The position numbers and the translations under genes are program-made. A stretch of 64,000 nt of DNA, from NCBI GenBank assembly GCA_003955985.1, contig CP033784.1, positions 310,001-374,000 of the forward strand. The letters run 5' to 3'. How positions within the stretch are numbered: position 1 is the stretch's first letter; every line of letters starts with the position of its first letter. This DNA comes from Corynebacterium jeikeium (GTDB lineage: Bacteria > Actinomycetota > Actinomycetes > Mycobacteriales > Mycobacteriaceae). The notes below the pieces were generated by a model that saw only the letters and a list, made by a program, of their open reading frames with translations, did not search any database and was not told the DNA's origin. This document shows positions 3-63,952 of the stretch, one piece after another.

Positions 3-1085
3 GTCCTGGGCTTGGTTATTGGTGTGCCCTTGGCGCCGCTAGCTATGGCGCAGGTCGAGAATCAGTCGGGAAAGGTTCTTCTGGGCCTCGGCACGGTGAT
101 TCTGTTCGCCCTGATTGGTCATGCGGTGGGAACAGTGGCAGGGCAGTCGCTGCGGAATACCATTCGCTCGCCGTTGGCAGTCGGCCTGGATTCGAGCCTT
201 GGTGCCATCGTGCAGTCCGTGACTGCGCTGGTAGTGACATGGATGATCGCCGTACCCCTGGCCACCGCCGTGCCCGGGCAGTTCGCCGACTGGGTGCGTG
301 AGTCCAAGGGCATGAACCTCATTGACCAGGTCGCGCCCGACGAATGGAGTGACGGCTTCAGTGGCATCCTCCGTCAGCTCCGCGACGATGGAATGCCCGC
401 CATCGCTCCGCCATTCGGCTACAAGCAGAACGTCCCCGATGAACCCGCCGACCCCAATGTGATTTCACAAGGTGTCGTCGACAGTATTCGACCGTCCATC
501 GTCCGCGTCTTGGGCGAGGCCCCGCAGTGCGAACGCTTGCTGCAGGGCACGGGCTTTGTCATCGCACCGGATCTGATTCTCACCAACGCGCACGTGGTCG
601 CCGGCGCCACCACTGTTCGGCTGGAAACTGTGGTCGGCATGGCTGACGCAAACGTCGTGCACTACGATCCGCTTGACGACGTCGCCTTGCTCCGGACCAC
701 CGACCTACCCCTGGAGCCCATGCAGTGGGCGGACCAGGAAGCTCGTCCGGGTGATGACGCGGTAGTGCTGGGCTTTCCCGAGTCCGGCCCCTTTAAAGCC
801 ACGCCTGCGCGCGTGACGGAGAACATTATTATTCGAGGCCCGGATATTTATTCGTCGACTCGACACGAGCGCCAGTCCTATGTTCTGAAGGCAGATGTGC
901 GCCACGGCAACTCGGGCGGACCACTGATTACGCCACAGGGTCAGATCCTGGGCTTGGTCTTCGGTGCCGGTGTGAACAATGACCAGACTGGTTACGCGCT
1001 GACGCACGCCGAGGTCCAGCCACACATTGATGAGGCGATGAATCACTACGGGGCCATCAGCACGCAGGAGTGCGTGGCGGGGTAA
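3..1085 (+). CDS. MarP-like membrane serine protease (5' partial)
   Basis: Periplasmic trypsin-like protease tethered by an N-terminal CvpA-type membrane domain, as in M. tuberculosis MarP (Rv3671c), which supports acid and oxidative stress resistance. The reading frame is open to the left edge, so the true start lies outside the window. Two hydrophobic segments are visible (around 75-140 and 190-285), then a linker, then the protease. The triad is visible: His in TNAHVVAG (codon at 591), Asp in DDVALLR, Ser in GNSGGPL. A Cys shortly before the protease core and one near the C-terminus could form the disulfide known in MarP. The neighbours (EphE-like hydrolase, holin-family protein) match the mycobacterial order, which supports the call. 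One copy of the CGTCGTNAAGC word lies inside the gene at 671-681. Confidence 0.88.
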   Translation, partial: VLGLVIGVPLAPLAMAQVENQSGKVLLGLGTVILFALIGHAVGTVAGQSLRNTIRSPLAVGLDSSLGAIVQSVTALVVTWMIAVPLATAVPGQFADWVRESKGMNLIDQVAPDEWSDGFSGILRQLRDDGMPAIAPPFGYKQNVPDEPADPNVISQGVVDSIRPSIVRVLGEAPQCERLLQGTGFVIAPDLILTNAHVVAGATTVRLETVVGMADANVVHYDPLDDVALLRTTDLPLEPMQWADQEARPGDDAVVLGFPESGPFKATPARVTENIIIRGPDIYSSTRHERQSYVLKADVRHGNSGGPLITPQGQILGLVFGAGVNNDQTGYALTHAEVQPHIDEAMNHYGAISTQECVAG

Positions 1086-1168
1086 GCGGCAAGTTGTGTG
1101 TCTGTGGGCAGGGCAGCCCCTAGTCCCAGCCGCAGGAGAGTTCTGGCTGGCTTCAGCCGTGCCGGAGC

Positions 1169-2146
1169 CTAAGATCCCTCCGGCAACCAGTGCAGGTGAT
1201 CTCTGATTGCCTGCACCACAGCCTGCGGTTTCTCTACCGGCAGGAAGTGCCCACAGCCCGGGATGACGCGCACGTGGGTGGAGCTGAGCTCCACCAGCGC
1301 AGGTGGGGTACGAGTGTCCTGCTCGCCGACGAGCAGCACCGTGTGCTCATCGTTTTTCGACGAGCCCTCCATCGCACCCAACCACTTGCGGAAAGCGACC
1401 GGAGCCGGTCGCGTCCACCAATTCATGTGAGCCAGTGCAGGGCGGAGTGCACCACTGGTCAGGCTGTCAGCCATGAGTTCCGCGGTCTGTTTCCCCTCAG
1501 GGGTCTCGGCGAACCCCTCCCCGGCGGTGGACATGGACTCGCGCACGATGCGGTCAATGAGCCGCTGCTGGCGAGCCTCAGCTGCCTGCGTGCTGAACTT
1601 ATTGCGACGCAACCGCGGTACCCGTGGCCGCGAGTCCCACCACGAACGGCGCAGCAGCGGGGCAAGGCTATTGCGGAAGTCCTCCGACCACGGGCTCTTC
1701 AACTGGTTGAGCCACACCTTCGGATGTGCAGCACCACAACCAATAATTCCGGTAACAAGATTCGGCTGCCGCGAGGCCAGCGTCCATGCCACCCACGTGC
1801 CGAACCCCTGACAGACCAGCAGTGCGGTCGAGTGCCCCAACGAGCGAATCGACGAGGCGATGTCCTGGGCCGCCTCAAACGGATCGTAGCCATGCGGTGT
1901 TCGGTCGGACTGACCGTAGCCACGCATAGAAATAGCCACAGCGTGCACGGGGAGGGGGTCGCCCGAGTCGTCGTTAAGCATTGGCAAAACCTCGCGCCAT
2001 TCAAACCAACCGCCAGTCGAGCCGTGAATAAACAACACGAGCGGATCGGAGGGGCGGCCGCACTCGGCGATGTGTAGGCGCTGGCCGCGGACGTGAATGA
2101 GACGATGACGCCAGGGGCCGGTAAGAGAATCGCTGAGGGAGGTCAT
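1169..2146 (-). CDS. Alpha/beta hydrolase, EphE (Rv3670)-like, nucleophile missing
   Basis: Alpha/beta-hydrolase fold protein of 325 aa, placed beside the MarP gene as ephE is in mycobacteria. The oxyanion-loop HGSTGG is at residues 41-46, and a late Asp (GEQDTRTPP) and His (GCGHFLPVEKP) are in the expected places. The nucleophile elbow reads VCQGFG at 111-116 where active relatives have the pattern G-H-D-W-G, so the nucleophile position is Gly. The protein may be non-catalytic or use another residue. The start is taken at the ATG at 2146 because it begins just before the conserved region; an in-frame TTG at 2224 would run through the terminator of the upstream gene. No good ribosome binding site is visible at either start. 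Confidence 0.75.
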   Translation of the reverse strand: MTSLSDSLTGPWRHRLIHVRGQRLHIAECGRPSDPLVLFIHGSTGGWFEWREVLPMLNDDSGDPLPVHAVAISMRGYGQSDRTPHGYDPFEAAQDIASSIRSLGHSTALLVCQGFGTWVAWTLASRQPNLVTGIIGCGAAHPKVWLNQLKSPWSEDFRNSLAPLLRRSWWDSRPRVPRLRRNKFSTQAAEARQQRLIDRIVRESMSTAGEGFAETPEGKQTAELMADSLTSGALRPALAHMNWWTRPAPVAFRKWLGAMEGSSKNDEHTVLLVGEQDTRTPPALVELSSTHVRVIPGCGHFLPVEKPQAVVQAIRDHLHWLPEGS

Positions 2147-2198
2147 GAGGGGAAATACCTTATCCGAAGGGCTTAAACCGGGACTGAATAAGACAAAA

Positions 2199-2222
2199 GG
2201 GCGAGACCAACAAGTCCCGCCC
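2199..2222 (-). terminator. Rho-independent terminator after holin-family gene
   Basis: A 9-bp stem with one mismatch (GGGCGGGAC / GTCTCGCCC on the minus strand), a 6-nt loop and TTTTGTCTT downstream. It lies 18 bases after the stop of the minus-strand gene ending at 2240. A T-rich stretch also lies on the plus side (TTTCTTTTT), so it may act in both directions. Confidence 0.7.
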
Positions 2223-2944: not shown

Positions 2945-3952
2945 ATGAACAATCAGCCTGAGAACGTGCGTGGAGCCGATGGAGTTGGTGCCGGTGTCGG
3001 AAAGGGTGACGGCAATGGCGCCGGTGTCGGAAAGGGTGGCCTAGCTGGCATGAGCCTGGGTGTGTCCTCCGTGTCGGCGAAGAAGCGCGCAGAGCGTGAG
3101 GCAGCGCAGGCGAAGGCATCTGAATCGGGTGCCGGTCGCGCTGACAGTGCTCCCGCCGCTGCTATTCCGCAGCTTGACCCCAAGGACCCCCTCGCGCCCC
3201 TGTGGCAGCTCGACGGCGTTGCACACGCGGCTGATGTCGCGGCCAAGGCCATCCAGTCCGTCCATAGGCACAAAGCCAACCTGCGCAAGCACAACGTCAC
3301 CGGCTCCGAGTCGGTCCTGCGTGGCGCTCGGGCATCGGCGTGGCTAGAAGGCGGCGAGCCATCGCTTCCCGACGACGGCAACATCACCGATCCCGTACTC
3401 GCAGCAGCCCTGCGGGTTGCCGACACCATTTCCCCGGAGTCAATTGGTGAGACCACCCGCGTGTGGCAGCGCGCTCCGCAGCAGGTGCTGGCCAAGTTTG
3501 CGTTGAACGCATCGCCCGCAGGTGAAACTGAAGACGGTTCCGAGGCGCGGATGAAGGCCGGCCGTCCGGTCGGTGACGACAAGCTCTCGTCTGCGATGAA
3601 GGAGCAGCGTCTGCACGTGCTCGGTGACTTCATCACTGGCCGCAGCCAGATTCATGCTGGTGTGCTCTCGGCGATTGTGCACGGTGAGCTGCTGACTCTG
3701 CGCCCCTTCGAGTATCACAACGGCATCATCGCCCGCGCCGCCTCGCGACTGACAACTGTCGCAACCGGCCTGGATCCGCGTGGCTTGGCCGTGCCCGAGG
3801 TCTACTGGACTCGCCACCGCCAGGAGTATGTCGAGGCCGCAGAGGGGTTTGCGTCGGGAAGCGCCGATGGCCTGCGTGCGTGGATTCTCCTGCACCTGGA
3901 GGGGCTGAAGGCCGGTGCCGTGGAAGCGCGCGGTATCGCCGAAGCGGTGTAG
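2945..3952 (+). CDS. Rv3662c-family protein with degenerate Fic-like core
   Basis: 335 aa, best matched by position and layout to the mycobacterial Rv3662c family. The N-terminal 70 residues are low-complexity Gly/Ala/Lys and contain a DNA-level direct repeat (two copies encoding GAGVGKG-like units). The C-terminal half resembles the Fic fold: helical segments lead to LRPFEYHNGIIAR, which aligns with the Fic motif HPFxxGNGRxxR. The catalytic His is replaced (RPF rather than HPF) and GNGR reads HNGI, so AMP-transferase activity is doubtful. ATG at 2945 is preferred over GTG at 2936 because AGGG at 2933-2936 is then 8 bases upstream. It runs convergently into the SerB-like gene 24 bases away. 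Biological role unknown. Confidence 0.6.
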   Translation: MNNQPENVRGADGVGAGVGKGDGNGAGVGKGGLAGMSLGVSSVSAKKRAEREAAQAKASESGAGRADSAPAAAIPQLDPKDPLAPLWQLDGVAHAADVAAKAIQSVHRHKANLRKHNVTGSESVLRGARASAWLEGGEPSLPDDGNITDPVLAAALRVADTISPESIGETTRVWQRAPQQVLAKFALNASPAGETEDGSEARMKAGRPVGDDKLSSAMKEQRLHVLGDFITGRSQIHAGVLSAIVHGELLTLRPFEYHNGIIARAASRLTTVATGLDPRGLAVPEVYWTRHRQEYVEAAEGFASGSADGLRAWILLHLEGLKAGAVEARGIAEAV

Positions 3953-5270: not shown

Positions 5271-6836
5271 GGGCTGCAAATGTGAAACTGTATGAGTTTA
5301 TGACACTTTCAAGTGGTAGGTTCAGGCGGTGAATGCATCACCACTTTCGACCAGGAGAAGTAGTGAAGCAAACCCGCCGAACGAAATACAGTGCCATCAA
5401 ACCCATTGCGCTTCAACACATCGCCAACGGGGCATCAGCAAGCGCAGTTGGACGTGAGTTAGGGATACCCTCACCAACTGTCAGGCGGTGGGCGCGACAA
5501 GCCGGAATTGCGATTCAGCACCAATCGCACTGCCCGAAGGTCTCGATGATGCATAAGCATCGCGTGATCTACGAGATGCTTATGGCCGGCTCATATAGTG
5601 TTGCCGAGATTGCCGCGCAGGCTGGGGTGTGCACAACCACGGTGTATAACCGGCGGGCTAGTTTAACCACTATGAATACCCGCAGTCGGATAACACCTGG
5701 TGATGTATCTCGTGTTGGTACTGGTCGGCGGCTAGGGCTGGCCGAACGCTTACTTATTGCCGATTGCCTGCGGGCAGGTCATTCGCACCGGCGTATCGCC
5801 CAGATAGTCTGTCGTAGTCAATCCACTATCAGTCGTGAAATCGCACGCAACAGCGTCGATGGTATCTACGATGCCTATCACGCTGATCAGGCCAGCCGCG
5901 GGCGTCTTGCTCGTCCAAAGCCGCGCAAACTCGATGACAATCGATTTTTGCGCGCCCAGGTTGTCAATCTGCTCAACCGTGGCGCCTCGCCGCGTCAGGC
6001 CAGTGGCAGGTTGGCTGCACTGTGGGGTGATAATACGTCCATGACTATTAGCCACGAGTCGATTTACCAGGCCCTTTACGTACAAGGGGCAGGAAGCTTG
6101 CGCAAAGAACTTGTGTTTGAAAAGTCCTGCCGGACTACCCGGCCAGGGCGTAAACCCCGCTCGCTTCTCGCAGGGGTGCCCAAGCCACGTGGAAAACGCT
6201 GGACTCATGATGCCAATATTTCACTTCGCCCAGCCGAAGCCAATGATCGTGCGGTACCCGGTCATTGGGAAGGCGATTTGATTATTGGCGCAGATGGCAC
6301 CAGTGCTTTAGCGACGTTGGTGGAACGCCGCAGCAGGTTTGTGCTGCTCGGCAGACTCGGCACTGACCATACTGCCGCCAGTGTCAATGAGGTGATGGTA
6401 CGGATGATTCGTCGGCTCAAAGAGTCGATGGACACCACGATTTCGACGTTGACCTGGGATCAGGGGGTGGAGTTTGCCAAACACACGGAGTTTTCTGTCG
6501 CGGAGAATATCCAGGTGTTTTTCGCCGATCCGCATTCGCCGTGGCAGCGAGGTAGCAATGAGCGGATGAATCGGGATATCCGGTTTTATTTCCCCAAAGG
6601 CACCAACTTTACCGATGTCACCGACCAAGAGGTCGCCGAGGCGGAAGCATTGCTGAATAACCGGCCGCGGGTAGTGCTCGACGGGTTAACTCCTCGGGAG
6701 GTAATCTCTGGTGTTATCCATGATGCAATGACCGCCTGACCCTACCAGTCATTTTTCGTGCCATTTTTGTCATAAACACAGTCACTAACTCGCATCGACC
6801 CAACGCCACCTGACATAAACGTAGTCACTAACTTGC
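5271..6836 (+). mobile_element. IS30-family insertion sequence
   Basis: A transposase gene of the IS30 family flanked by related ends. The left end has GTTTATGACA at 5296-5305, the right end the complement TGTCATAAAC at 6768-6777. The right end is doubled: a roughly 43-bp unit (6768-6810) is followed by a second diverged copy starting TGACATAAAC at 6811. The outer flanks (5271-5295 and 6778-6836) also recur beside the mini-element near 15.4 kb, in inverted orientation, so the mobile unit or a larger repeat includes them. Exact boundaries and target duplication are not resolved. It lies between the 6C terminator and the ssd gene. Confidence 0.8.
5363..6739 (+). CDS. IS30-family transposase
   Basis: DDE transposase of 458 aa. 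It has an N-terminal tandem HTH region (ASAVGRELGIPSPTVRRWAR; SVAEIAAQAGVCTTTVYNRR), a second HTH typical of IS30 (LIADCLRAGHSHRRIAQIV), and a catalytic core with GHWEGDLI, LTWDQGVEFA and PHSPWQRGSNERMNRDIR. These give the Asp-Asp-Glu triad with the IS30 signature around the Glu. GTG at 5363 is chosen because AGGAG at 5353-5357 precedes it by 5 bases; an ATG at 5333 is in frame but has no ribosome binding site. The reading frame is intact, so the element may still be active. Confidence 0.88.
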   Translation: MKQTRRTKYSAIKPIALQHIANGASASAVGRELGIPSPTVRRWARQAGIAIQHQSHCPKVSMMHKHRVIYEMLMAGSYSVAEIAAQAGVCTTTVYNRRASLTTMNTRSRITPGDVSRVGTGRRLGLAERLLIADCLRAGHSHRRIAQIVCRSQSTISREIARNSVDGIYDAYHADQASRGRLARPKPRKLDDNRFLRAQVVNLLNRGASPRQASGRLAALWGDNTSMTISHESIYQALYVQGAGSLRKELVFEKSCRTTRPGRKPRSLLAGVPKPRGKRWTHDANISLRPAEANDRAVPGHWEGDLIIGADGTSALATLVERRSRFVLLGRLGTDHTAASVNEVMVRMIRRLKESMDTTISTLTWDQGVEFAKHTEFSVAENIQVFFADPHSPWQRGSNERMNRDIRFYFPKGTNFTDVTDQEVAEAEALLNNRPRVVLDGLTPREVISGVIHDAMTA

Positions 6837-6964: not shown

Positions 6965-8380
6965 GTGCACGCTATGGCCATGGCAATCAAGAAACTGTCC
7001 ATGGCTCAGCGAACCGAGGCTTCAGCAAATCCAGTAGTCAACGCCGTCGATGATGAGGCGCTGCGTGAAGAGGTTGCGCTCATAGTCGCTGCTACCGGTC
7101 GTGACTGTGTGCAGGAGACCGTGCCACCTGTGGCTGCAGCGTCAGTGGCCGCACAAACATTTGCTTCGCCGCCAGCATCACTATCATCATCAGCCCCAGA
7201 GCCTTCCCCATCGTCAGTATCGACAGGAGCGGGAGTTTCATCGGCCCTGTGGCGTCGGGCACCAGCGGTGTTCGTCGATGCACCGGCAGCCCGAAGATTA
7301 GCCGGACGGCCTCATAGTGAGGGAGCGATCTTTCTGGTCCGCAGTGATACTGAGGCGGAAGATGCGCAGGTAGCGGAGGTTTTAGCTCCTGTTTACAGCG
7401 CCAGTTTGCCCGCGGACAACGTCGATATTGTCGAGCTGCTCGGCCGTGGCGACGTACGCCCGGATGCTCCGAAGCCCTCCGATTGCCAAAACCGCTCGAA
7501 CCACCTGAACCACCATCAGAACCCAGCGTCACCTGCCTTCGCAGACGTGATTACAGCACCGGGTACAGAACCCGTACCGAACGTGCCGGCAACTACAACC
7601 GATTCCACGGCAACGTGCCTGATGTTGGTTCCTGCGGTCGGCGGTGCCGGGGCTTCCATTGCCGCGGCGGCGAGTGCATTGGTTCTTTCCCGTGAAAGGC
7701 CCATCTGTTTGGTGGACGCGGACGTGCTCGCGGGAGGCATTGATCTGGTGCTCGGGATGGAAACGGAACCGGGATTGAGGTGGCAGGACTTCTCGGCTGC
7801 TGATGGTCGTCTCGACGGAGCGGCACTCTACGAAGCACTGCCATCCTGCCCGCGATCACCCGCTCTGAAAGTGTTGACGTGGACTCGCAGTCGCACGCCC
7901 GAGACGACTTACAACCACGCCTCGGCGAACAACAAATTCGACAGCGCCGACAGAACCGACAGGCCCGACGATGTCCGGCACATTGCCAGCACCATTAGTT
8001 GCCTTATTCATGCCGGAATTACGGTCATCGTGGACTGCCCGAAGCAGGTGGAGTACGTCACCACTCTCGGCGCACTTGCCGATGACACCGTCATAGTCCT
8101 GCCCACCTCCGTTCGAGCCATCGCAGCCGCTGGGCACTTGGCGAGCATCTGTGCACAGGCGGGGTTCACCCCAAATCTTGCAGTGAGGTACCAGCAGCAC
8201 CGCGATATCAGTGTCGAAGAGGTGGAATACGCTCTCGACCTGCCTATTGTTGGTGAGATTGAGTACTGCAAGAAGGTAGCTCACGAGATAGATGTGGGCG
8301 GGCTCGCTGGAACCGTCGGCAAGCTGACGCGGGGATTGGAAGCGATGTTTGCCCTTGTCGGCGGTGGTGGCGATGGATGA
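6965..8380 (+). CDS. ssd: Septum-site-determining/CpaE-like protein Ssd
   Basis: 471 aa, equivalent by position and layout to Rv3660c (Ssd), a MinD/CpaE relative heading the tad operon and reported to affect septation in mycobacteria. Residues about 55-95 are a Pro/Ser/Ala-rich linker, followed by a receiver-like region (LVRSDTEAED...LAPVYSASLPADNVDIVELLGR). The ATPase-like domain starts with LVPAVGGAGASIAAA. The Walker A lysines of KGGxGKT are absent, as in other Ssd proteins, so ATP hydrolysis is doubtful. The start is uncertain: GTG at 6965 and ATGs at 6974, 6980 and 7001 are in frame and none has a clear ribosome binding site. The stop overlaps the tadA start. Confidence 0.8.
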   Translation: MHAMAMAIKKLSMAQRTEASANPVVNAVDDEALREEVALIVAATGRDCVQETVPPVAAASVAAQTFASPPASLSSSAPEPSPSSVSTGAGVSSALWRRAPAVFVDAPAARRLAGRPHSEGAIFLVRSDTEAEDAQVAEVLAPVYSASLPADNVDIVELLGRGDVRPDAPKPSDCQNRSNHLNHHQNPASPAFADVITAPGTEPVPNVPATTTDSTATCLMLVPAVGGAGASIAAAASALVLSRERPICLVDADVLAGGIDLVLGMETEPGLRWQDFSAADGRLDGAALYEALPSCPRSPALKVLTWTRSRTPETTYNHASANNKFDSADRTDRPDDVRHIASTISCLIHAGITVIVDCPKQVEYVTTLGALADDTVIVLPTSVRAIAAAGHLASICAQAGFTPNLAVRYQQHRDISVEEVEYALDLPIVGEIEYCKKVAHEIDVGGLAGTVGKLTRGLEAMFALVGGGGDG

Positions 8381-9518
8381 CGTCAGGCTGTTGGCGGCGG
8401 TGCGGACGGCGCTTGCGGAGCGGCCTGGGGTGGCATCGCATAGCGAGGTCGCCGACATCATTCGAGCAGAGACCTCGGGGGTTGTCTCCGATGTGAAGGT
8501 GCTGGAGATTCTACGCACGATTCGCGAGGAAACAGTGGGCGCGGGTGTGTTGGATGCGCTGTTGCGACGCCCGGGTGTCAGCGATGTGCTGGTCACCGCG
8601 CCGGGCGAGGTCTGGGTCGACGCTGGCAACGGACTGGAGCGGGCCGAGATTTCCTTCACGGACGAGGGCGAGGTGCGCGCGTATGCGGTGCGGCTCGCGT
8701 CGCGGTGTGGACGAAGGCTTGACGACGCGCAACCCTGGGCCGACGGCCATATTCCTGGTGGTGTCGGCGGCTGTGGTGTGCGAGTTCATGCGGTGCTTTC
8801 CCCACCGTCGGCGACCGGCACTCAGATTAGCCTGCGGGTGCTGCGTCCGGCTCGTCGCGGACTTGCGGAGCTATGCGATGTCGGGCTATTTCCACCGGAG
8901 ATTCTGCCGGTGCTCCGGGGAATCGTGGCGGGACAGCTTTCGTTTATTGTCGCCGGTGGCACGGGTGCGGGAAAGACCACGCTATTGGCGGCGATGCTTT
9001 CAGAAGTTAATCCTGACCAGCGCATTGTGTGTATCGAGGACACTCCGGAGTTGCAACCGCAGCACCCGCATGTGGTGAAGCTGGTGACCAGGGCCGCCAA
9101 CCTGGAGGGTGCCGGTGCGATTGGGCAGCAGGAGTTGCTGAAGCAGGCGCTGCGCATGCGTCCCGACCGCATTGTCGTCGGTGAGATTCGAGGCGCCGAA
9201 GTGGTGGATCTGCTGGCAGCGTTGAATACGGGGCATCGCGGTGGGGCGGGGACAATTCACGCCAACCGGATTGGGGATGTCGTCGCGCGCTTTGAGGCCC
9301 TGGGGTTGATCGGTGGCCTTGGTCGCGCCGGGCTACATGCGCAGTTGGTCTCGGCGGTGCAGGTGGTGTTGGTGGTCGAACGCGCTGATGTTCGCCGGCT
9401 GGCACAGATCGGGCTGCTACGCGGTAACCCACCGGAGGTGGTGGAGGTCTGGACTGCTCGGGATGGGCCTGGGCCGGGTTGGGAAGCGTTGCAGAAGTTG
9501 CTGGTCGGCGGGGAATAA
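8373..9518 (+). CDS. tadA: Tad pilus secretion ATPase TadA (CpaF family)
   Basis: Hexameric type II/IV secretion ATPase of 381 aa that powers Flp pilus assembly at the inner membrane. Walker A VAGGTGAGKTTLLAAML, Asp box, Walker B RIVVGEIRG and the His-box region LNTGHRGGAGTIHAN are all present and intact. The ATG at 8373 overlaps the ssd stop by 8 bases, implying translational coupling; an upstream in-frame TTG at 8349 is less likely. Equivalent to Rv3659c. Confidence 0.88.
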   Translation: MDDVRLLAAVRTALAERPGVASHSEVADIIRAETSGVVSDVKVLEILRTIREETVGAGVLDALLRRPGVSDVLVTAPGEVWVDAGNGLERAEISFTDEGEVRAYAVRLASRCGRRLDDAQPWADGHIPGGVGGCGVRVHAVLSPPSATGTQISLRVLRPARRGLAELCDVGLFPPEILPVLRGIVAGQLSFIVAGGTGAGKTTLLAAMLSEVNPDQRIVCIEDTPELQPQHPHVVKLVTRAANLEGAGAIGQQELLKQALRMRPDRIVVGEIRGAEVVDLLAALNTGHRGGAGTIHANRIGDVVARFEALGLIGGLGRAGLHAQLVSAVQVVLVVERADVRRLAQIGLLRGNPPEVVEVWTARDGPGPGWEALQKLLVGGE

Positions 9519-9584
9519 CCGGTGGAATACCCGATGGAATGACTAGAGGAAAAGTCAGGGGATTAGACGGGGAGATTAACAGCT

Positions 9585-10475
9585 ATGGGGGAAGGGTTTA
9601 GCGTGGCGATGCTCATTGGGGGCGTGGCTGCAGTAGTCGCTATCTGGCCGGACAGCTCGGCGGCGGTGCGCTCGCGAGCACTGGCAGGCCGTGCCCGCGA
9701 GGTGTCCAGCGGGCTGAAGTGGTTGCAGCGCATGGTTGGACTTGGTGCTGGTTCCACGGGGTCGAGTGCAGCAAGCACTGGCAGTGCGAATCGAACTACA
9801 GGACTATCAATCCTCATCGTTGCAGGCCCAGCACTCGTGTTGCTGTGGCTCGCCGGGATTCCAGGTGTCATAGCCGGGCTGTTGCTGGGCCGCACCGCAG
9901 GGGCAGTAGTGCGCGCTGTGAGGGAGAGGCGCTGTGAACGTCGGGAAGCGGACAGCGCTGCGGTAGCGCTGGAAACCTTGACCGCGCAGCTGCGCGCAGG
10001 AGTGGCGGCTTCACGAGCGCTCAACGCGGCAGCAGCGGAATTGCGCAGGTCAGAGGATGAGACTGTGTTGGCTGATCATCTCGCGCACGCGGCGCATCGC
10101 GCGAACTTCGCCGACCCGTGGGAGGGCGAAGAATCTTCGGAGCAACTGCGCCGGATTGGGCGTATGTGGACGGTGGCGCAGCAGCACGGTCTGAGTTTGG
10201 CTGGGTTGCTGGACTGCGCGCGGGGTGATTTGCAGGCTCGTCAGGCGCATCGCTCACAGACGTCTGCTGCGCTGGCGGGACCACGCATGACGATCGCCAT
10301 CTTGGCATCACTGCCGGTGTTCGGTTTGGTCATGGGGCAAGCTTTCGGAGCGTCCCCATTCGAGTTCCTCAGTCGCGGCATCGGAGGAATTGTGCTGGTC
10401 ATCGGTGTCGGGCTGGTGTGCGCGGGCATCGAATGGGCGGTCGCCATCATCGATCGTGCGGAGGCCGGACAATGA
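9585..10475 (+). CDS. tadB: Tad pilus inner-membrane protein TadB (GspF family)
   Basis: 296 aa with a type II secretion F-domain layout: N-terminal membrane segments (residues 1-20 and about 65-105), a cytoplasmic helical domain (TLTAQLRAGVAASRALNAAA...ADPWEGEESSEQLRRIGRMW), and two C-terminal membrane segments (MTIAILASLPVFGLVMG; GGIVLVIGVGLVCAGIEW). It forms the platform with TadC on which TadA acts. ATG with GGGGAG at 9569-9574. A 66-bp gap separates it from tadA. Equivalent to Rv3658c. Confidence 0.8.
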   Translation: MGEGFSVAMLIGGVAAVVAIWPDSSAAVRSRALAGRAREVSSGLKWLQRMVGLGAGSTGSSAASTGSANRTTGLSILIVAGPALVLLWLAGIPGVIAGLLLGRTAGAVVRAVRERRCERREADSAAVALETLTAQLRAGVAASRALNAAAAELRRSEDETVLADHLAHAAHRANFADPWEGEESSEQLRRIGRMWTVAQQHGLSLAGLLDCARGDLQARQAHRSQTSAALAGPRMTIAILASLPVFGLVMGQAFGASPFEFLSRGIGGIVLVIGVGLVCAGIEWAVAIIDRAEAGQ

Positions 10476-11125
10476 TTGCCGCCGCACTTCTCATCGCCGT
10501 CTACCTCTGCTTGCCGACGTTCAATCCCGTCCGCAGCCGACTGCCCGAATTGGTAGCCGAGTCGGATGCTCGCGCGCGAGGAAGCGTACGCCGACAGGTG
10601 ACCAATCGGGTGGCGCAGATTGCCGCACAGGTGCGGGAACGTGTGCGAACTGTCATTGGCGGTGAGCGCATCAGCCCGGCTGTGCTGCTCGATGCCGCAG
10701 CGGCCCTCGACATCATTGGTGCTTGTTTGAGCTCCGGTATGCCGTTGTCGCAGGCCATGGCAGCAGCTGCCGATGGTGCAAACCCTGAGCTGGCCGAGCC
10801 ACTTCGACAGTGTTCCGCCAGGTTGTCCGTGGGCGCGCACTCCGCTTGGGACAGCCTTGCTGCCACACCCGCGCTCGTACCCCTGGCGACGGCTGGGCGC
10901 CGAGCAAGCGAATCCGGCACCGTTCTGGCGCAGGCGTTGGAGGACACCGCTGCCACGTACCGCAGTCAAGCGCACGATGCGGCGCAAGCCGTCGCCGAAA
11001 AGGCTGGTGTCCTCATTGCCGGGCCTCTGGCGTTGTGCTTTCTACCCGCGTTTGTGGTGCTGGGTTTGGTGCCCACCATCGCTGGGCTTGCCGACGAAAT
11101 GTTTGCAGGACTGATGCCGTCATGA
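10472..11125 (+). CDS. tadC: Tad pilus inner-membrane protein TadC (GspF family)
   Basis: 217 aa, short GspF-domain protein. N-terminal membrane segment (MIAAALLIAVYLCLP), a helical domain with the typical LDIIGACLSSGMPLSQAMAAAA and AGRRASESGTVLAQALEDTA blocks, and a C-terminal hydrophobic region (LIAGPLALCFLPAFVVLGLVP). The ATG at 10472 overlaps the tadB stop as ATGA and follows GGAGG, so the two are translationally coupled. Equivalent to Rv3657c. Confidence 0.8.
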   Translation: MIAAALLIAVYLCLPTFNPVRSRLPELVAESDARARGSVRRQVTNRVAQIAAQVRERVRTVIGGERISPAVLLDAAAALDIIGACLSSGMPLSQAMAAAADGANPELAEPLRQCSARLSVGAHSAWDSLAATPALVPLATAGRRASESGTVLAQALEDTAATYRSQAHDAAQAVAEKAGVLIAGPLALCFLPAFVVLGLVPTIAGLADEMFAGLMPS

Positions 11126-11248
11126 AGCGTGGACACTTCTGCGCCCAGCCTCGCGCGCTGGCACGCGCCGGATGCAGTGCTGGTTGCGCTCTCAGCTGTG
11201 GCTTCGGTTGTGCGCGTGGTCCGCCTGCCGCGCCGTAATCCAAGATGC

Positions 11249-11278
11249 GTCAACGCACGTCAACGCGCGTCAATGCAC
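11249..11278. repeat. Three 10-bp direct repeats upstream of pilin gene
   Basis: GTCAACGCAC, GTCAACGCGC and GTCAATGCAC follow each other without gaps, 55 bp before the pilin start. A 10-bp period places them on one face of the helix, suggesting a protein-binding site that sets pilin expression apart from the assembly genes. The rest of the 207-bp gap (11126-11332) shows no gene I can support. Confidence 0.5.
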
Positions 11279-11332
11279 ATCACACCTCACAACTGTCCTG
11301 TCACTCGACATCCACATAGGGGGGAAACACTC

Positions 11333-14618: not shown

Positions 14619-14926
14619 CCTTTCCTGCAAACGCGCACTTCACATGCTTGACGACGCTTCCTACCAGCCACTTTTCCGCTGCTCAACACCCCAGTTTCTC
14701 CGGATCCCGAGCACGGGGTTTACGGGGGTGGCAAGAAGCTGTTGCTAATCGGCGCTCGCGCCCCAAACGTGGCAGACTTTTTGAGTGTATCGCCCGCCAA
14801 AGGGCACCCGGCAAAAGCCCGCTCGAGGCGGAAAGGGTGTTCTGGCCGTGTTTACCCCATTGTGTGTGGCCGGATGTGCGTGGCGAATACTTGTTTTATC
14901 GAATCCTGAAGTTGGGAAGTTTTGTA
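14619..14926. other. Divergent region and long cspA leader
   Basis: 308 bp between the helicase start and cspA. It contains a CGTCGTNAAGC word (complement strand, 14646-14656) close to the helicase start and probably the cspA promoter. Any transcript starting in the left half would give cspA a 5' leader of over 150 nt, common for cold-shock genes. No coding sequence is supported. Confidence 0.4.
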
Positions 14927-18755: not shown

Positions 18756-18758
18756 GGC

Positions 18759-34357: not shown

Positions 34358-35377
<1,020 letters not shown>

Positions 35378-52487: not shown

Positions 52488-55103
52488 ATGGCTGAGACAA
52501 AACCGGAAGGCATCATGGCCAACGATTCGACCACGGCAGCAGTCGACGAGACTGAGCGTGTGATTCCGCAGGGGCAGGGTCACGACGCGGAGACCGCAGA
52601 GGCTGAAAAACAGGAGGAGACGGTGTCCCCAGTTCGTCGTAAGCAGCGTCGTAACTTCCCGGCGGATCGTGCGGATAAGCACCACCACCTTGTAAATGCC
52701 GAGGGACTCATGGACCGAGACATCACTCCGGTCGATGAGTGGCGTCTGATTGAGACGAAGCCGAACGGCCTCCCGCTCGGTTTGGGCGAGACGCTGTTTG
52801 CGCTGTCGAACGGGTACATCGGCATGCGTGGCAACCCGCCGGAGGGCCGTGACTCCAGTGAGCACGGCACTTATATCAACGGTCTGCATGAGACCTGGCC
52901 GATTAGGCACGCCGAGGACGCCTACGGCCTAGCCCGCCAGGGGCAGACGATTGTCAATGCTCCGGACGCTAAGGCAATGCGTCTCTACATTGACGATGAG
53001 CCCCTGCGTCTCGGCAATGCTGAGGTCAGCGACTACGAACGTAGCCTGGATTTCCGCGAGGGCGTGCTGCGTCGTCGGTTCATTTGGCGCACCCCGGGTG
53101 GCAAGCGCGTTCGCGTCACCTCTGAGCGCATGGTGTCTTTCCAGGAAAAGCATGTCGCCGCGATGAGTCTGGAAGTCGAGCTGCTGGATGCGGATGCTGC
53201 GGTGATGATTAACTCGCAGATCCTCAACCGCCAGGACGGCGAGGACGAATACCACGATGCCGCTAAGGCGCAGGGCACCGAACTGGATCCCCGTCGCGCC
53301 GAGGCGCTGGAAGACCGCGTTCTCATTCCGGCATTTCAGTCGGAATCGGCGCACGGGCAGCGCTCGACGCTGGGCTACCGCTGCGCGAACTCCGGTATGA
53401 CCGTGGCTACCTCCATGGACCACACCTTTACTGTCCGCACTCCCGACGGCACGGAGCCGTTCGTAGAGATTTCGCAGTCGACCGAGCCGGATGTGGCCAG
53501 CTCCCTGTTCAACCTGGATGCGCCGGTCGGCACTGTCATACGCCTGGAGAAGCTGGTCGCGTACCACTCCTCCCGTAAGGTGCGTGCCGAAGAGCTGGCA
53601 TTCCGCTGTGAGCGCACCCTGAACCGCGTCGGCCGCATCGGCATGCTGGGGCTGATGGAGAACCAGGAGGAGTGGCTCGAACGCTTCTGGGAGCGCTCTG
53701 ACGTGGTCATTTACAATCAGCCGGAGATTCAGCAGGCAGTGCGCTGGAACATTTGGCAGATTATCCAGGCCGCCGCCCGCGCCGAATTCCAAGGCGTCCC
53801 GGCCAAGGGAATGACCGGCACCGGCTACGGCGGCCACTACTTCTGGGACACGGAAATCTACGTGACCCCATTCCTTACCTATACGTCGCCGCAATTCTCG
53901 CGCAATGCCATGCGTTTCCGCTGGGACATGCTCGAAGCCGCGTGGGCGCGTGCCGACGAACTGGCGCACGACGGTGCCCTCTTCCCGTGGCGCACTATCA
54001 ATGGTCAGGAGTCCTCGGCCTACTTTGAGGCCGGCACGGCGCAGTACCACATCGATGCGGACATCGTGTACGCGATGATGAAGTACGTCTATGCCTCCGG
54101 CGATGAGGAGTTCCTGCTCAAGGAGGGCACGGATCTGTTGCTCGGCACGGCCAGGTTTTGGATGTCGTTGGGATTCTTTGATGCCGAGCAGCGAGAGTTC
54201 CAAATTCACAGCGTCACCGGTCCAGATGAGTACAACACGGTGGTGAACAACAACCTGTACACCAACGTGATGGCGCAGTATAACCTGCGGGTTGCTGCGG
54301 ACGTCGTCAAGCAGATGAAGCGTGATCGCCCTGCTGCCTATCGCGAACTGACCAACCGCTTCGACCTCACTGAGCGCGAGGTTGAAGAGTGGGAGCAGGC
54401 CGCTGAGGCGATGTACATCCCGTTCGATGAGAAGCTCGGCATTCACCCTCAGGATGACCAGTTCCTGCTGCGTAAGCGCTGGAATCTCGACGATCCCGAA
54501 GTTGGCCCGCTGCGCCCGCTGCTGCTGCATTACCACCCGCTGACGATTTACCGTCACCAGGTCATTAAGCAGGCGGACGTCGTCCTCGCACTGTTCCTCA
54601 TGGGCAATCGCTTTACGACGGAACAAAAGCGCGCAGACTACATGTATTACGATCCGCTCACCACCGGTGATTCCTCGCTGTCCGCCGTTGTGCAGTCCAT
54701 TGTTGCGGCCGAGTTGGGCTTGCAGGAGCAGGCAATGGACTTCTTCCTACGCGGACTCTATGTGGACCTGGCGAACTTGCATGGCAACGCTGCCGATGGT
54801 GTCCACGTCGCATCTGCCGGTGGTGTGTGGCAGTCCCTGGTCTATGGTTTCGGTGGTTTCCGCGATCATGACGGCCGCTACAGTATTGACCCGCGTCTGC
54901 CGGAGGACTGGAGTGGTCTGACGTACCGAGTCACTATTCGTGGTTGTCGTATCCGAGTGACGGTGCGCGGCCGCACGGTGGAAGTCGTCCTGGAGGAGGG
55001 AGACCACCAGGTTGGGCCGATTATGGTCGCAGGACATGAGGTGATCATTGGTCCGGAGCCGTTGACCGTGGTGATGGCGAACTCGGATCAGAGCGAGGAT
55101 TAG
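52488..55103 (+). CDS. Glycoside hydrolase family 65 disaccharide phosphorylase
   Basis: 871 aa. The first 70 residues are charged and low-complexity; the GH65 N-terminal beta-sandwich follows (LIETKPNGLPLGLGETLFALSNGYIGMRG) and the (alpha/alpha)6 barrel from about 380. The general-acid Glu is in HSVTGPDEYNTVVNNN, and the phosphate-contact region follows in GDSSLSAVVQSIVAAELG. Phosphorolysis of maltose, trehalose or a related glucoside gives beta-glucose 1-phosphate; the substrate is not determined. It begins 15 bases after the beta-PGM gene. The start is uncertain (52488 or the ATG at 52515). Two dispersed words lie inside (54302, 54610). Confidence 0.86.
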   Translation: MAETKPEGIMANDSTTAAVDETERVIPQGQGHDAETAEAEKQEETVSPVRRKQRRNFPADRADKHHHLVNAEGLMDRDITPVDEWRLIETKPNGLPLGLGETLFALSNGYIGMRGNPPEGRDSSEHGTYINGLHETWPIRHAEDAYGLARQGQTIVNAPDAKAMRLYIDDEPLRLGNAEVSDYERSLDFREGVLRRRFIWRTPGGKRVRVTSERMVSFQEKHVAAMSLEVELLDADAAVMINSQILNRQDGEDEYHDAAKAQGTELDPRRAEALEDRVLIPAFQSESAHGQRSTLGYRCANSGMTVATSMDHTFTVRTPDGTEPFVEISQSTEPDVASSLFNLDAPVGTVIRLEKLVAYHSSRKVRAEELAFRCERTLNRVGRIGMLGLMENQEEWLERFWERSDVVIYNQPEIQQAVRWNIWQIIQAAARAEFQGVPAKGMTGTGYGGHYFWDTEIYVTPFLTYTSPQFSRNAMRFRWDMLEAAWARADELAHDGALFPWRTINGQESSAYFEAGTAQYHIDADIVYAMMKYVYASGDEEFLLKEGTDLLLGTARFWMSLGFFDAEQREFQIHSVTGPDEYNTVVNNNLYTNVMAQYNLRVAADVVKQMKRDRPAAYRELTNRFDLTEREVEEWEQAAEAMYIPFDEKLGIHPQDDQFLLRKRWNLDDPEVGPLRPLLLHYHPLTIYRHQVIKQADVVLALFLMGNRFTTEQKRADYMYYDPLTTGDSSLSAVVQSIVAAELGLQEQAMDFFLRGLYVDLANLHGNAADGVHVASAGGVWQSLVYGFGGFRDHDGRYSIDPRLPEDWSGLTYRVTIRGCRIRVTVRGRTVEVVLEEGDHQVGPIMVAGHEVIIGPEPLTVVMANSDQSED

Positions 55104-59674: not shown

Positions 59675-61024
59675 ATGGATAACAACCCCGCTAAGCTCCC
59701 GGCAGCTGTAGATACGGTCTCGGACCGTCTCGAAGTTCCCGGGCCATCACCAGAGGTTGAGGCGGAAAAACGTGCGCAACTGCGTAAGGCTAAGGCCTTC
59801 GCTACGATGCTGCTGGTCATCGCAACCGCTGTGTATTTCACATGCCGCGGTATTGAGTCTTCACACTTATCCGCAGGCGAAGTTGTGCCCGCGTGGGTGG
59901 GCTACGTTCGCGCTGCTTCTGAGGCTGGCATGGTCGGTGCCCTCGCCGACTGGTTCGCAGTCGTAGCTCTGTTCCGCCACCCGCTCGGCATTCCTATCCC
60001 ACACACCGCTATCGTCCGTCGCAAGAAGGACCAGGTCGGTGAGTCCCTGGCGCAGTTCGTCGGTGATAACTTCCTGAACCCCGCTTTGATTGTGGACAAG
60101 GTGCGTAAGGCCGAGATTCCTGAGCGTATCGGCGAATGGCTGGTAGCGCCGGGAAACGCCGACAAAGTGTCCGCAGAGGTCGGTAAGTTCACCGGAAATG
60201 TGCTGGAGGCGATTAATCCTGACGATGCCGCCGCAGTGCTGAAGTCAGCAGTCATCGACGAAGTTGCAGCCCCGGAGTGGGGGCCACCAGCGGGTAAGGT
60301 TCTCGAGCAGCTGATCGAAGAAGGGCGCACCGAGCCTATTGTCCAGCAGATGGCTGAGTGGCTGCACCGGAAGTCGCTGGGCTCGCAGAATCTTATCGAC
60401 CGACTCGTCGGAGAGCGCGCCCCCTCCTGGGCACCGAGCTTTGTCAACGATCTCATCGGCGACAAGGTCTATCGCGAGCTGGTTGATTGGACCTGGCAGG
60501 TGCAGCATGACCCTAAGCACGACGCGCGCCTGGCGCTCCACCGCTTCCTCACGCAGCTCGCCGTTGATTTGCAGAACGACGAGAAGACCATCGCCAAGGT
60601 CGAAGAAATTAAGACTGACATTCTTTCGTCCGCCGCTGTCACACAGGCACCGGCGAAGATTTGGGCATCAACATCCGCAAAGCTTGTCGACGCTGCCCGC
60701 GACCCGGACTCCCTGCTCCGTCGGAAGGTCTCGGAAACGGCCGCCCGCTACGGCGAGCGAATCCAGTCCGATCCTGAGTTGCGCAAACGAATGGACCGCC
60801 GTCTGGAAGCGGCTGTCGTCTTCATCGCTGAGAACTACGCGGGCGAGATTACCTCGATCATTTCCGAGACCGTCGAGCGTTGGGACGCCGATGAGGCTTC
60901 CGACAAGATTGAACTGATGGTCGGTCGCGATCTGCAGTTCATTCGCGTTAACGGCACTGTTGTCGGATCACTGGCCGGTTTGGCTATTTACACCCTGTCG
61001 ACCTTGGTGTTTGGGGCTATTTAG
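59675..61024 (+). CDS. DUF445 domain membrane protein
   Basis: 449 aa. N-terminal membrane segments near 40-58 and 85-100 (VGALADWFAVVALFRHPLGIPIPHT is the DUF445 signature), a long soluble helical domain (about 110-420) with repeated VGDNF-LNP / IGEWL units, and a C-terminal membrane helix (VGSLAGLAIYTLSTLVFGAI). Proteins of this family are found in envelopes of many bacteria; the function is not known. ATG 59675. Confidence 0.85.
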   Translation: MDNNPAKLPAAVDTVSDRLEVPGPSPEVEAEKRAQLRKAKAFATMLLVIATAVYFTCRGIESSHLSAGEVVPAWVGYVRAASEAGMVGALADWFAVVALFRHPLGIPIPHTAIVRRKKDQVGESLAQFVGDNFLNPALIVDKVRKAEIPERIGEWLVAPGNADKVSAEVGKFTGNVLEAINPDDAAAVLKSAVIDEVAAPEWGPPAGKVLEQLIEEGRTEPIVQQMAEWLHRKSLGSQNLIDRLVGERAPSWAPSFVNDLIGDKVYRELVDWTWQVQHDPKHDARLALHRFLTQLAVDLQNDEKTIAKVEEIKTDILSSAAVTQAPAKIWASTSAKLVDAARDPDSLLRRKVSETAARYGERIQSDPELRKRMDRRLEAAVVFIAENYAGEITSIISETVERWDADEASDKIELMVGRDLQFIRVNGTVVGSLAGLAIYTLSTLVFGAI

Positions 61025-61682: not shown

Positions 61683-62569
61683 CGGTTGCCGTAAACCTGC
61701 ACACGGTCCTCCAGGTGCCAGCGCAAACCGCGGGCGAGGACCTGCTTCTCCGCATCGCGACCTTCACGCTGCATGTCCGCAGCGGTGTATTTGTGGGAGA
61801 CACGCATGACGTCCTGCTCAATAATCGGACCATCGTCGAGGTCCTCAGTGGCGTAGTGGCAGGTGGCACCGATGAGCTTCACACCACGTCGATAAGCCTG
61901 CAGATACGGGCGCGCGCCCATGAACGACGGCAGGAAGCTGTGGTGGATATTGATTGCGCGGCCTTCCCACTTCTCGCACAGATCCGGCGGCAGAATCTGC
62001 ATGAAACGTGCGAGCACGATGGCATCCGGGTTTTCGGCGTCGACAATCTCGGCGACCTCATCGAATGCCTTACGCTTGCCGACGGCATCCTTGGGGAAGG
62101 GCACATGGTGGAAGGGAATGTCATACGCTGCGACCAGTGGCTCCAGATCGCGGTGGTTACCAATTACTGCAGCGATTTCCATCGGATAGTCGGACTGTGC
62201 GACGCGGCCGAGCAGATCCTGCAGGCAGTGGCCTTCCTTGGTCACCAGGATGACAGCGCGCTTCGGGACAGCGTTGTCGGTGACCTTCCAGCGGACCTCA
62301 GGGCCCCAATCACCGACGAGCTCGGCGAATTTCTCGCGCAGCTCTTCTACCGTCAGGTCGAGCGCGTCGGCGCGGACCGCCTGGCGAGTGAAAAACCATC
62401 CGGTCTCCGGGTCGGAGAAGAAGTCCGCTTCGGTAATCCACGCACCAATGTCGGACAGGAAGGTCGACAGGGTGGAAACGATACCGGTACGGTCTGGACA
62501 GCCGAGCGAGAAGATGTACTGGCGCTCGGTGGGAGTACCGCTATTTGCGGTGATGAGAGAGCGAGTCAT
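61664..62569 (-). CDS. purU: Formyltetrahydrofolate deformylase
   Basis: 301 aa. N-terminal ACT domain (FSLGCPDRTGIVSTLSTFLSD, about 20-95) then the formyltransferase-like domain with LVTKEGHCLQDLL, FHHVPFPKD, NIHHSFLPSFMGARPY and the catalytic Asp in EDLDDGPIIEQDV. It hydrolyses 10-formyl-THF to formate and THF, balancing one-carbon pools. The C-terminus ends in Thr-Val-Val-Phe-Gln at the tandem repeats. Confidence 0.95.
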   Translation of the reverse strand: MTRSLITANSGTPTERQYIFSLGCPDRTGIVSTLSTFLSDIGAWITEADFFSDPETGWFFTRQAVRADALDLTVEELREKFAELVGDWGPEVRWKVTDNAVPKRAVILVTKEGHCLQDLLGRVAQSDYPMEIAAVIGNHRDLEPLVAAYDIPFHHVPFPKDAVGKRKAFDEVAEIVDAENPDAIVLARFMQILPPDLCEKWEGRAINIHHSFLPSFMGARPYLQAYRRGVKLIGATCHYATEDLDDGPIIEQDVMRVSHKYTAADMQREGRDAEKQVLARGLRWHLEDRVQVYGNRTVVFQ

Positions 62570-62586
62570 TCTCGGTATCTTACCTG

Positions 62587-63357
62587 CTAGCTAAAGGTAA
62601 GTTCGCTCACGGTCGACAAAGGCAGATTTGCGCCCGTCAGCGTCAACGCCAGGCCCTCCCCGGTGACGTGCGCTTCCTCCACCTGCATACCGTGGCCGAT
62701 ATCGTAGCTCAACAGCGTACCGCTCGCTTCTCCCAGCCAGCCGGCCAGGCCATCGAGGTTTAAGCCGAGGATTGAGCCGCCCTCCAAGTTGATTTCGATA
62801 TGGCCGCCGTTGGCAATCGGGCGGAATTTGGAGGTCGCAAATCCGGAGGCGAATTCAATGTTGAACAGGCCTTCGTCCGGCAACGGCGTGATTGTGGAAG
62901 CGCGTACACCGCTTTCCCGGTTAATTAGCGCCTGCAGCAGCTGAGGTGGGATTGTGACGTCTACTCGCAGCGACTCTGCGGTCGGATCCGCACGATTGCT
63001 CAGATCCACGTTTTCCAGGTGCACTTCCGCTGCCGGGTCACCGTTGATCTCCGGTGCGCTACCCAGCGCTTCCGGGTTCTTGACCTCCAGTGTGTTCGGA
63101 GTGGACAGATCCATCGAGGGCACTGACTTGGTGGCCAAGGCGAGCAGCATCGGGCGGGTGCCGAAAGAAACCTTGGGGTCTTCAGTGACCGTCGCACCAC
63201 GCTCTTCGGCGGAGGTGCGGTAGCCGTCGGAAATCTCCTTGCTCACGAACATCCGGACGCCGATTTCGCCGGCAATCGCAATGAGTGCCACCACGATGAT
63301 GACACCGAGGACGGTGGGCAGGACTTTGACGCTCGACGAGCGTTTAGCAGAACTCAT
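62587..63357 (-). CDS. DUF2993 / LmeA-family lipid-binding protein
   Basis: 256 aa. One N-terminal membrane helix (VLPTVLGVIIVVALIAIAG, about 12-30), then an exported domain of the DUF2993 type; mycobacterial LmeA of this family is periplasmic, binds phospholipid and affects lipomannan elongation. ATG 63357. The gap to the DUF2505 gene upstream contains one dispersed word (63371-63381). Confidence 0.78.
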   Translation of the reverse strand: MSSAKRSSSVKVLPTVLGVIIVVALIAIAGEIGVRMFVSKEISDGYRTSAEERGATVTEDPKVSFGTRPMLLALATKSVPSMDLSTPNTLEVKNPEALGSAPEINGDPAAEVHLENVDLSNRADPTAESLRVDVTIPPQLLQALINRESGVRASTITPLPDEGLFNIEFASGFATSKFRPIANGGHIEINLEGGSILGLNLDGLAGWLGEASGTLLSYDIGHGMQVEEAHVTGEGLALTLTGANLPLSTVSELTFS

Positions 63358-63454
63358 GGTTCCCAGTCTTGCTTAACGACGGCTCCGTCGCTACCACCTT
63401 TCTTCGCCCGGGTGTCCGCCCCCGGTGCCGCCTCGGTGTGCCCCGCTGCGCAAC

Positions 63455-63952
63455 CTACTTAGTGACGTAGTCCGCCAGCACAGCGGTCTCAGCGTTGAGG
63501 ACGCGCTCCAGGTACGGAGCTGCCTTCTCCTCGAGCTTGCCACCGAGCAGCGGCACGTTGATGGCGAACTCGGAGTTGGTGGTCAGCACGGAACCTTCAC
63601 CCTGGGCGGTGAGCTTCTGGGACGCACTGAAGGACGCCGGTACGCCCGAAGCTTCTGTGGTCAAAGTAGAGGTCGCGCCGTCGTCGTTAAGCGGGCTGAT
63701 GACGAACGTGCGCGTCATGCCGACCCCGGACTTGACGAACTTCTGTGCCTGCGCCGGAATCTTGTCAGCAGAGACGGTCTGGCGAATCACGACGGTGGTG
63801 CCAGCGTCGGTGGTCTCGAACTTTTCCACCTTGCCGTCAGCTGCCGAGAAACGGTTTGCGACCTTCTCCCAGAAACCGGCGTCGGTGAGGGCCTCGTAAA
63901 CCTTCTCAATCGGCTGGTCGAAGTTGACGGTGTGCGTGTTAGTCGTACTCAT
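63455..63952 (-). CDS. DUF2505 (START/polyketide-cyclase-like) protein
   Basis: 165 aa, single-domain protein of the SRPBCC-type fold suggested by the N-terminal beta-alpha start (VNFDQPIEKVYEALTDAGFWEKVANRF) and alternating strands to the long C-terminal helix (LEERAAPYLERVL-like). DUF2505 proteins occur in actinobacteria and may bind a hydrophobic ligand; role unknown. One dispersed word lies inside (63682-63692). Confidence 0.8.
   Translation of the reverse strand: MSTTNTHTVNFDQPIEKVYEALTDAGFWEKVANRFSAADGKVEKFETTDAGTTVVIRQTVSADKIPAQAQKFVKSGVGMTRTFVISPLNDDGATSTLTTEASGVPASFSASQKLTAQGEGSVLTTNSEFAINVPLLGGKLEEKAAPYLERVLNAETAVLADYVTK

Follow-up and report, generated by a model that had tools for sequence, protein, structure and literature searches.

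The DNA uptake sequences (DUS) of the Neisseriaceae and the uptake signal sequences (USS) of the Pasteurellaceae are the closest described counterparts of the element considered here, a directional word, C[G/A]TCG-NN-AAGC, that is dense in a 64,000-nucleotide stretch of Corynebacterium jeikeium DNA (GCA_003955985.1, contig CP033784.1, positions 310,001 to 374,000; hereafter, the window) and in many other genomes of the genus. Both described systems lack polarity and are depleted in mobile DNA, their words often stand in inverted repeats that serve as terminators, and specific receptors have been named for them, ComP in the Neisseriaceae and, as a proposal, ComN in the Pasteurellaceae. In the portions of the papers drawn on here, the DUS is described as a short non-palindromic word present in hundreds to thousands of copies, whose dialects keep an inner core fixed and track phylogeny (PMC3630211, PMC12616744), and the USS as a nine-base core with many copies, two types that lie a few bases apart (Hin-USS and Apl-USS), and AT-rich tracts downstream that reach out to about 32 bases (PMC12616744). 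Judged from its sequence and distribution, the Corynebacterium motif is probably a DNA-uptake sequence, or works like one.

The motif shares with the Neisseriaceae DUS (AT-DUS and its dialects, with ComP as receptor) the type of word, the copy range, and phylogeny-following dialects with a fixed core, but differs in phylum, in sequence, and in its two free internal bases; moreover, the pilus in Corynebacterium is of the Tad/Flp type, whereas Neisseria has a type IV pilus, and terminator pairs are few. A nine-base core, high copy number, and two variants differing by few bases are common to the motif and the Pasteurellaceae USS, whereas no AT-rich tract is apparent within the 15 bases flanking the Corynebacterium motif on either side (236 sites), where information content is at most 0.32 bit per position. 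Taken together, the density, length, and core-keeping dialects of the motif, its absence of polarity, and its scarcity in mobile DNA match the DUS and USS of these two families. HIP1 of the cyanobacteria, whose function is debated, is also highly iterated, but it is palindromic, whereas the Corynebacterium word is directional and has dialects. Finally, competence in Micrococcus luteus offers a parallel in the machinery: transformation of this actinobacterium, whose genome carries comEA and comEC, requires Flp/Tad-like pili (PMC6370729), and the same combination of pilus, comEA, and comEC exists in Corynebacterium. The portion of that paper drawn on here makes no mention of an uptake sequence.

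Definition and abundance of the motif

The initial annotation of the window reported 24 exact copies of a word with ten fixed bases, CGTCGTNAAGC, and all of these are recovered at their places, 10 on the plus and 14 on the minus strand, where 100 dinucleotide shuffles give a mean of 0.32 and at most 2. The genome-wide count that it proposed as a check likewise lies far above expectation, with 322 forward and 340 reverse copies (662) in the 2.53-Mb genome as against 10 and 5 (15) for the reversed word. Its ten-base consensus, however, proved too narrow. Single-mismatch counts in an 850-kb sample (the window, 39 further 20-kb stretches of chromosome, and one 6-kb contig) show base 6 to be free, with the remaining bases at 12-, 7-, and 22-fold, and base 9 to be loose, with substitutes at 3- to 7-fold; base 8 accepts T in place of A (10 copies, 6.6-fold), and the remaining substitutions at fixed positions range from 0 to 2.3-fold. 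The narrow motif was dropped in view of the free base 6, the loose base 9, the sharpness of most other fixed positions, and the counts at other spacings. The wider motif CGTCGNNAAGC (CGTCG-NN-AAGC) has 11 bases, nine of them fixed, and is non-palindromic and hence directional, its two strands reading differently.

This wider motif is present in 45 copies in the window and in 767 forward and 807 reverse copies (1,574) in the genome, about 0.6 per kb, as against 35 and 31 (66) for the reversed word. The 850-kb sample holds 508 copies, compared with 10-23 at each of 13 alternative spacings between the two halves. We make no claim of an apparent depletion of single-base near-misses, because the Markov expectation is inflated by the motif itself. 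The earlier statement that topA is devoid of the word applies to the T-subset of the motif but not to CGTCGNNAAGC, two copies of which lie in this gene (16580 and 17186); the corresponding statement for insertion sequences stands for the IS30 gene at 5333-6739, which contains none.

Dialects and their spread across the genus

Among 201 Corynebacterium genomes, CGTCGNNAAGC occurs in at least 280 copies in 139 and in no more than 134 in 62, with no genome in between; the highest count of the reversed word is 107. Expressed as ratios to each genome's own reversed count the groups nearly touch, the lowest value in the rich group being 3.7 (G091) and the highest among the 49 genomes with neither dialect 4.3 (G128). 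A second dialect, CATCGNNAAGC, in which CG is changed to CA at base 2, reaches at least 600 copies in 11 genomes, namely 10 of the 62 plus G142; the latter carries both dialects (1,337 CA and 352 CG copies), such as one might look for in a transitional lineage. Weak CA enrichment in three others of the 62 (G072, G083, and G200; 159-213 copies) perhaps represents decaying remnants, and the CA count is mildly raised (118-159) in 11 CG genomes. A strong dialect is thus carried by 149 genomes and neither by 49 of the 201, the least clear of the latter being G128, with 115 copies versus 27 reversed. The CA dialect also emerged without a template: when 80 kb of each of two low-count genomes was scanned for gapped words, CATCGNNAAGC came out on top, with 38 and 33 copies against about 2. 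The free NN bases vary by lineage, for example, AT in G029 and GC, TC, and TA in the genome of the window (G000).

Beyond the genus, CRTCGNNAAGC does not exceed about 2.1-fold of its reversed control in the 199 genomes examined from elsewhere in the order. No further dialect was found in 10 of the 49 motif-less genomes, scanned over 80 kb each (G014, G151, G039, G066, G010, G147, and G162), 40 kb (G128), or 20 kb each (G041 and G131). The 80-kb word scan of G151 (L073-L076) is dominated by repeat words, ATACCTCCGC and CCGCGTGCGC, in about 51-53 copies; this family is possibly a CRISPR (clustered regularly interspaced short palindromic repeats) or similar array.

In a tree of the pilus ATPase TadA, built from 60 of 61 rows (G128 omitted, G010 present at 11% of columns) and having bootstraps that are not settled and a root that is not fixed, a single clade of 15 rows, supported at 98/99, takes in every one of the 11 CA genomes. 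That clade also holds two weak and two motif-less rows, G072 and G200 standing beside the motif-less G014. CG is scattered over the rest of the tree, and the motif-less label requires 10 changes, at least 5 of them by well-supported branches. It looks as if CG is the older dialect, CA the product of a single switch, and loss a repeated event, with G014 and G170 as nested cases; because the tree has no fixed root, this order is tentative.

Distribution along the chromosome and within genes

Across 844 kb of chromosome, forward and reverse sites number 122/137 on one replichore and 117/132 on the other, with the origin assumed at position 1 and the sign of the GC skew changing near 1.35 Mb; the first 20 kb shows the skew sign of the other arm, and the origin may sit some tens of kb onward. 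The motif therefore has no polarity with respect to replication, and in this sense the initial annotation was right to report no strand bias. Within predicted genes a bias does exist, 271 antisense versus 135 sense sites (2:1), with one favored frame: antisense frame 2, in which the motif reads CTT-NNC-GAC-G, accounts for 242 of 396 coding sites and is probably where proteins best tolerate the word. Sites outside predicted genes (102 of 508) are indicative only, the gene caller being crude (76% coding) and having overlooked four genes of the window (the tadB-like gene, the tadC-like gene, and the two for TadE-like proteins).

The spread of sites is more even than random (variance/mean 0.74 over 42 stretches of 20 kb) and shows no gradient from origin to terminus, the three successive averages being 12.5, 11.1, and 12.4 sites per 20-kb stretch. 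Gaps shorter than 200 bp are fewer than a Poisson process predicts (39 versus 57), and 9 of the 10 pairs less than 60 bp apart are inverted. Outside predicted genes, a few inverted pairs are able to fold into hairpins; that at 30810-30850 is an example, and another, in L015, is accompanied by a T-tract, though pairs of this kind do not occur in surplus.

The excess resides at the DNA level, because it survives synonymous shuffling of codons within genes, is found in all orientations and frames, and is absent from control words. Specifically, 100 such shuffles yield 20.6 sense and 8.7 antisense sites, against 130 and 266 observed; all six orientation and frame classes exceed the shuffles; and three control words of altered spacing or order show no enrichment in the same test. 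The contention that amino-acid usage does not explain the copies is thus borne out, for a shuffle that does not keep codon pairs.

Conservation of sites and depletion from plasmids

Four pairs of closely related genomes were compared, and in each of them identity is higher at the nine fixed bases than at the 20 flanking bases, with fixed versus flanking values, for what are small numbers of sites, of 0.995/0.953 (44 sites), 0.917/0.772 (16), 0.989/0.955 (20), and 0.994/0.969 (18). The free NN bases agree at 0.56 in the most distant pair and at 0.90 and 0.97 in two others. At third codon positions, comparison of G000 with G098 reveals changes in 2 of 116 motif bases as against 1,372 of 15,795 others (p = 0.004).

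Plasmids are nearly at background. In 17 Corynebacterium plasmids (1.02 Mb, hand-picked from search listings), CRTCGNNAAGC occurs 37 times and its reversed form 23 times, the highest counts being 7 in 96 kb and 6 in 84 kb. A RepA search assigned nine of the plasmids to surveyed hosts; the assignment is exact for C. stationis (G178, 100%, same coordinates), and the eight inferred hosts are C. mustelae, C. atrinae, C. marinum, C. halotolerans, C. comes, C. occultum, C. crudilactis, and C. maris, for which contig and coordinates agree within about 30 bases; through these matches, C. crudilactis and C. halotolerans would be CG species. These nine plasmids hold 25 sites and 16 reversed, where about 219 would be expected at the densities of their hosts (from rounded genome sizes); in C. 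stationis, for example, the genome has 1,074 CA copies and the 53-kb plasmid 0. Such depletion argues against uniform marking of the DNA in a cell, and it fits a recent arrival of the plasmid DNA from elsewhere. A further sequence in the assembly of the window, contig C2 (L044; 5,990 bp), matches a mobilisable plasmid of Enterobacter with 96.9% identity over 89% and is probably assembly cross-contamination, not a Corynebacterium replicon.

The Tad/Flp locus and competence genes

Profile matches identify a Tad/Flp pilus locus inside the window, at 6965-12289, with all of its genes on the plus strand. At its head is an Ssd/CpaE-like protein (6965-8380; TIGR03815, E 3e-44, 151.5 bits, just under the cut-off of 154.45), followed by the TadA pilus ATPase (8349-9518; TIGR03819, E 3e-135) and two T2SSF membrane proteins, one TadB-like (9585-10475; PF00482, E 1e-7) and one TadC-like (10418-11125; PF00482, E 2e-18). 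Next come a Flp-like pilin (11333-11581; DUF4244, PF14029, E 8e-24), for which the name Flp is suggested by place and sequence, and two candidate receptors, a TadE family minor pilin (11574-11927; NF041390, E 8e-13) and a TadE-like protein of the Rv3654c family (11924-12289; TIGR03816, E 1e-22). A DEAH-box helicase gene (TIGR03817, with an MrfA-like zinc domain) at 12273-14630 is convergent to the locus, in agreement with its family name of "helicase/secretion neighborhood." Elsewhere in the same genome are genes for ComEA (with SLBB and helix-hairpin-helix domains), ComEC, a prepilin peptidase, and DprA.

In hand-picked panels of genomes, ComEC is present in 80 of 80, TadA gives a match in 79 of 80 (77 over the cut-off; none in G024 and a trace in G112, both fragmented assemblies, and G010 just below), the prepilin peptidase (PF01478) a match in 77 of 79 (74 over the cut-off), and DprA in 79 of 79, G024 being omitted from the last two panels. 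ComEA accompanies 23 of 24 comEC loci examined (missing in G088). Presence of ComEC, TadA, prepilin peptidase, or DprA was ruled out as the switch that determines whether a species has the motif, as these genes are near-universal in the panels. The ComEC match of G001, a genome with 1,618 motif copies, consists of two overlapping pieces in different frames (G001:C4:524862-525658), for which a frameshift or sequencing error is possible.

The Flp pilin and the two TadE-like pilins are matched in 60 of 61 loci, the miss being G072, whose locus lies at a contig end; in G180 a single fragment accounts for both TadE-like matches. One residue of the TadE-like pilin is E in 10 of 11 CA rows and D in 10 of 14 CG rows, a count based on 38 of 61 loci; among those omitted are nine CG rows from the clade to which the window belongs, whose pilin is too different to align. 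This residue looked like a receptor signature but is provisionally put down to ancestry, given that TadA has a similar share of dialect-linked columns and shared ancestry suffices.

Copies of the motif in the window

Several copies lie within the Tad/Flp locus itself: CGTCGTCAAGC in tadA (8717-8727, minus), CGTCGGGAAGC in the tadB-like gene (9939-9949, plus), CGTCGGCAAGC twice in the tadC-like gene (10509-10519 and 11086-11096, both minus), and CGTCGGTAAGC in a tadE-like gene (11723-11733, minus). The two topA copies are CGTCGATAAGC (16580-16590, plus) and CGTCGGAAAGC (17186-17196, minus). An inverted pair outside predicted genes, with a plus copy at 30810-30820 and a minus copy at 30840-30850, is capable of folding into a strong hairpin (fold -38 kcal/mol).

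The remaining copies are distributed throughout the window. CGTCGTCAAGC recurs on the minus strand at 671-681, 14646-14656, 38269-38279, 41614-41624, and 42854-42864 and on the plus strand at 19346-19356 and 54302-54312, while CGTCGTTAAGC is found on the plus strand at 1969-1979, 12281-12291, 22912-22922, and 63682-63692 and on the minus strand at 34573-34583 and 63371-63381. Further copies of CGTCGGGAAGC are at 3364-3374 (minus) and 3852-3862 (plus), and those of CGTCGGCAAGC at 8314-8324, 21142-21152, 34422-34432, 40848-40858, 43381-43391, and 52120-52130 (all plus) and 62074-62084 (minus). CGTCGGTAAGC occurs again at 23423-23433 and 50927-50937 (both minus); CGTCGTAAAGC at 14198-14208, 45268-45278, and 49042-49052 (plus) and at 19748-19758, 36824-36834, 49640-49650, and 54610-54620 (minus); CGTCGATAAGC at 26379-26389 and 61887-61897 (both plus); CGTCGACAAGC at 28726-28736 (plus) and 60682-60692 (minus); and CGTCGTGAAGC at 46798-46808 (minus).

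Alternative explanations and a proposed mechanism

Dense and even sites throughout the chromosome would also suit the binding site of a nucleoid or chromosome-organising protein with a specificity that has drifted from one species to another, and depletion from plasmids fits such a site as well; yet most known organising motifs differ from the word described here, which has neither an origin-to-terminus gradient nor replication polarity, and the existence of congeners with neither dialect further inclines us to regard this explanation as unlikely. We consider improbable that the word is the target of a DNA methyltransferase or a self-marking defence, as might be envisaged by analogy with the cyanobacterial HIP1. 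Its presence or absence by species does resemble the turnover of restriction-modification systems, and HIP1 is also a highly iterated word, but the motif is non-palindromic and not of type I form, its dialect follows phylogeny, and restriction targets tend towards avoidance rather than accumulation.

Polar motifs of recombination or segregation, such as Chi or the FtsK-orienting polar sequences (KOPS), are over-represented and differ between genera, but the forward and reverse counts on the two replichores betray no strand bias along replication and nine fixed bases are long for Chi, and a role of this kind is very hard to credit. As for codon-pair, amino-acid, or mutational bias, it could be invoked for the concentration of coding sites in antisense frame 2, but the sense and antisense counts far exceed those of the synonymous shuffles (in which codon pairs were not kept), enrichment extends to all six classes and not to words of altered spacing or order, and the dialect changes a single base between species; we attach almost no probability to it.

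Returning to the uptake sequence, the comparison with Neisseria and Pasteurellaceae made in the initial annotation holds with respect to over-representation and analogy, and it gains support from the dialects, the restriction to the genus, the conservation, and the plasmid depletion. From the motif and the machinery genes we infer motif binding, uptake, the identity of the receptor, and molecular drive, in the following manner. A surface protein of the Tad/Flp pilus, conceivably a TadE-like minor pilin from the window, or else ComEA, would bind motif-bearing double-stranded DNA, and the pilus would pull the bound DNA across the mycomembrane and wall. ComEC would then transfer one strand into the cell, where DprA and RecA would recombine it. 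Preferred uptake of the marked DNA of relatives would cause the motif to accumulate by molecular drive, which is proposed to account for its high density in chromosomes and its scarcity in plasmids. Altered receptor specificity would give rise to a dialect, as from CG to CA at the second base, and where specificity or competence is lost the motif would decay.

A number of observations weigh against an uptake sequence. Competence genes are near-universal in the panels, and equally so in motif-less species, so that they allow uptake without proving it. G058 and G137, the two of 79 genomes that lack a prepilin peptidase match, are both motif-bearing; divergence, assembly gaps, or real loss are possible reasons. 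Dialect-linked columns are not commoner in the TadE-like pilin (2 of 100) than in TadA (8 of 375). Few of the sites form inverted pairs, and closely spaced pairs show no surplus. In the closest pair of relatives the NN bases are unchanged in 44 of 44 sites (1.00), conservation there not being confined to the fixed bases, and in predicted genes 0 of 64 NN bases changed between G000 and G098. Lastly, the titles returned by our literature search contain no report of natural competence in Corynebacterium.

That search, of open-licence papers by title and the start of the abstract, also returned no uptake sequence or over-represented word for Corynebacterium. On balance, we lean slightly towards a DNA-uptake-sequence system of independent origin, which would be the third of its kind and the first from the Actinomycetota. 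A competence machine built on the Tad pilus would here recognise a directional 11-base word, whose dialect would have shifted by a single base in one clade and which would have been lost repeatedly.

Implications

Cells of Corynebacterium, too, bear an outer (myco)membrane. If the motif is an uptake sequence, natural transformation is, or recently was, widespread in Corynebacterium, and the genus would be a case in which the strategy evolved anew in a further phylum, with a different pilus. The 149 genomes with a strong dialect, the 49 with neither, and the one-base switch provide material with which to locate the receptor. Natural competence becomes directly testable in an industrially important genus, and an uptake function would predict which of its species can exchange DNA.

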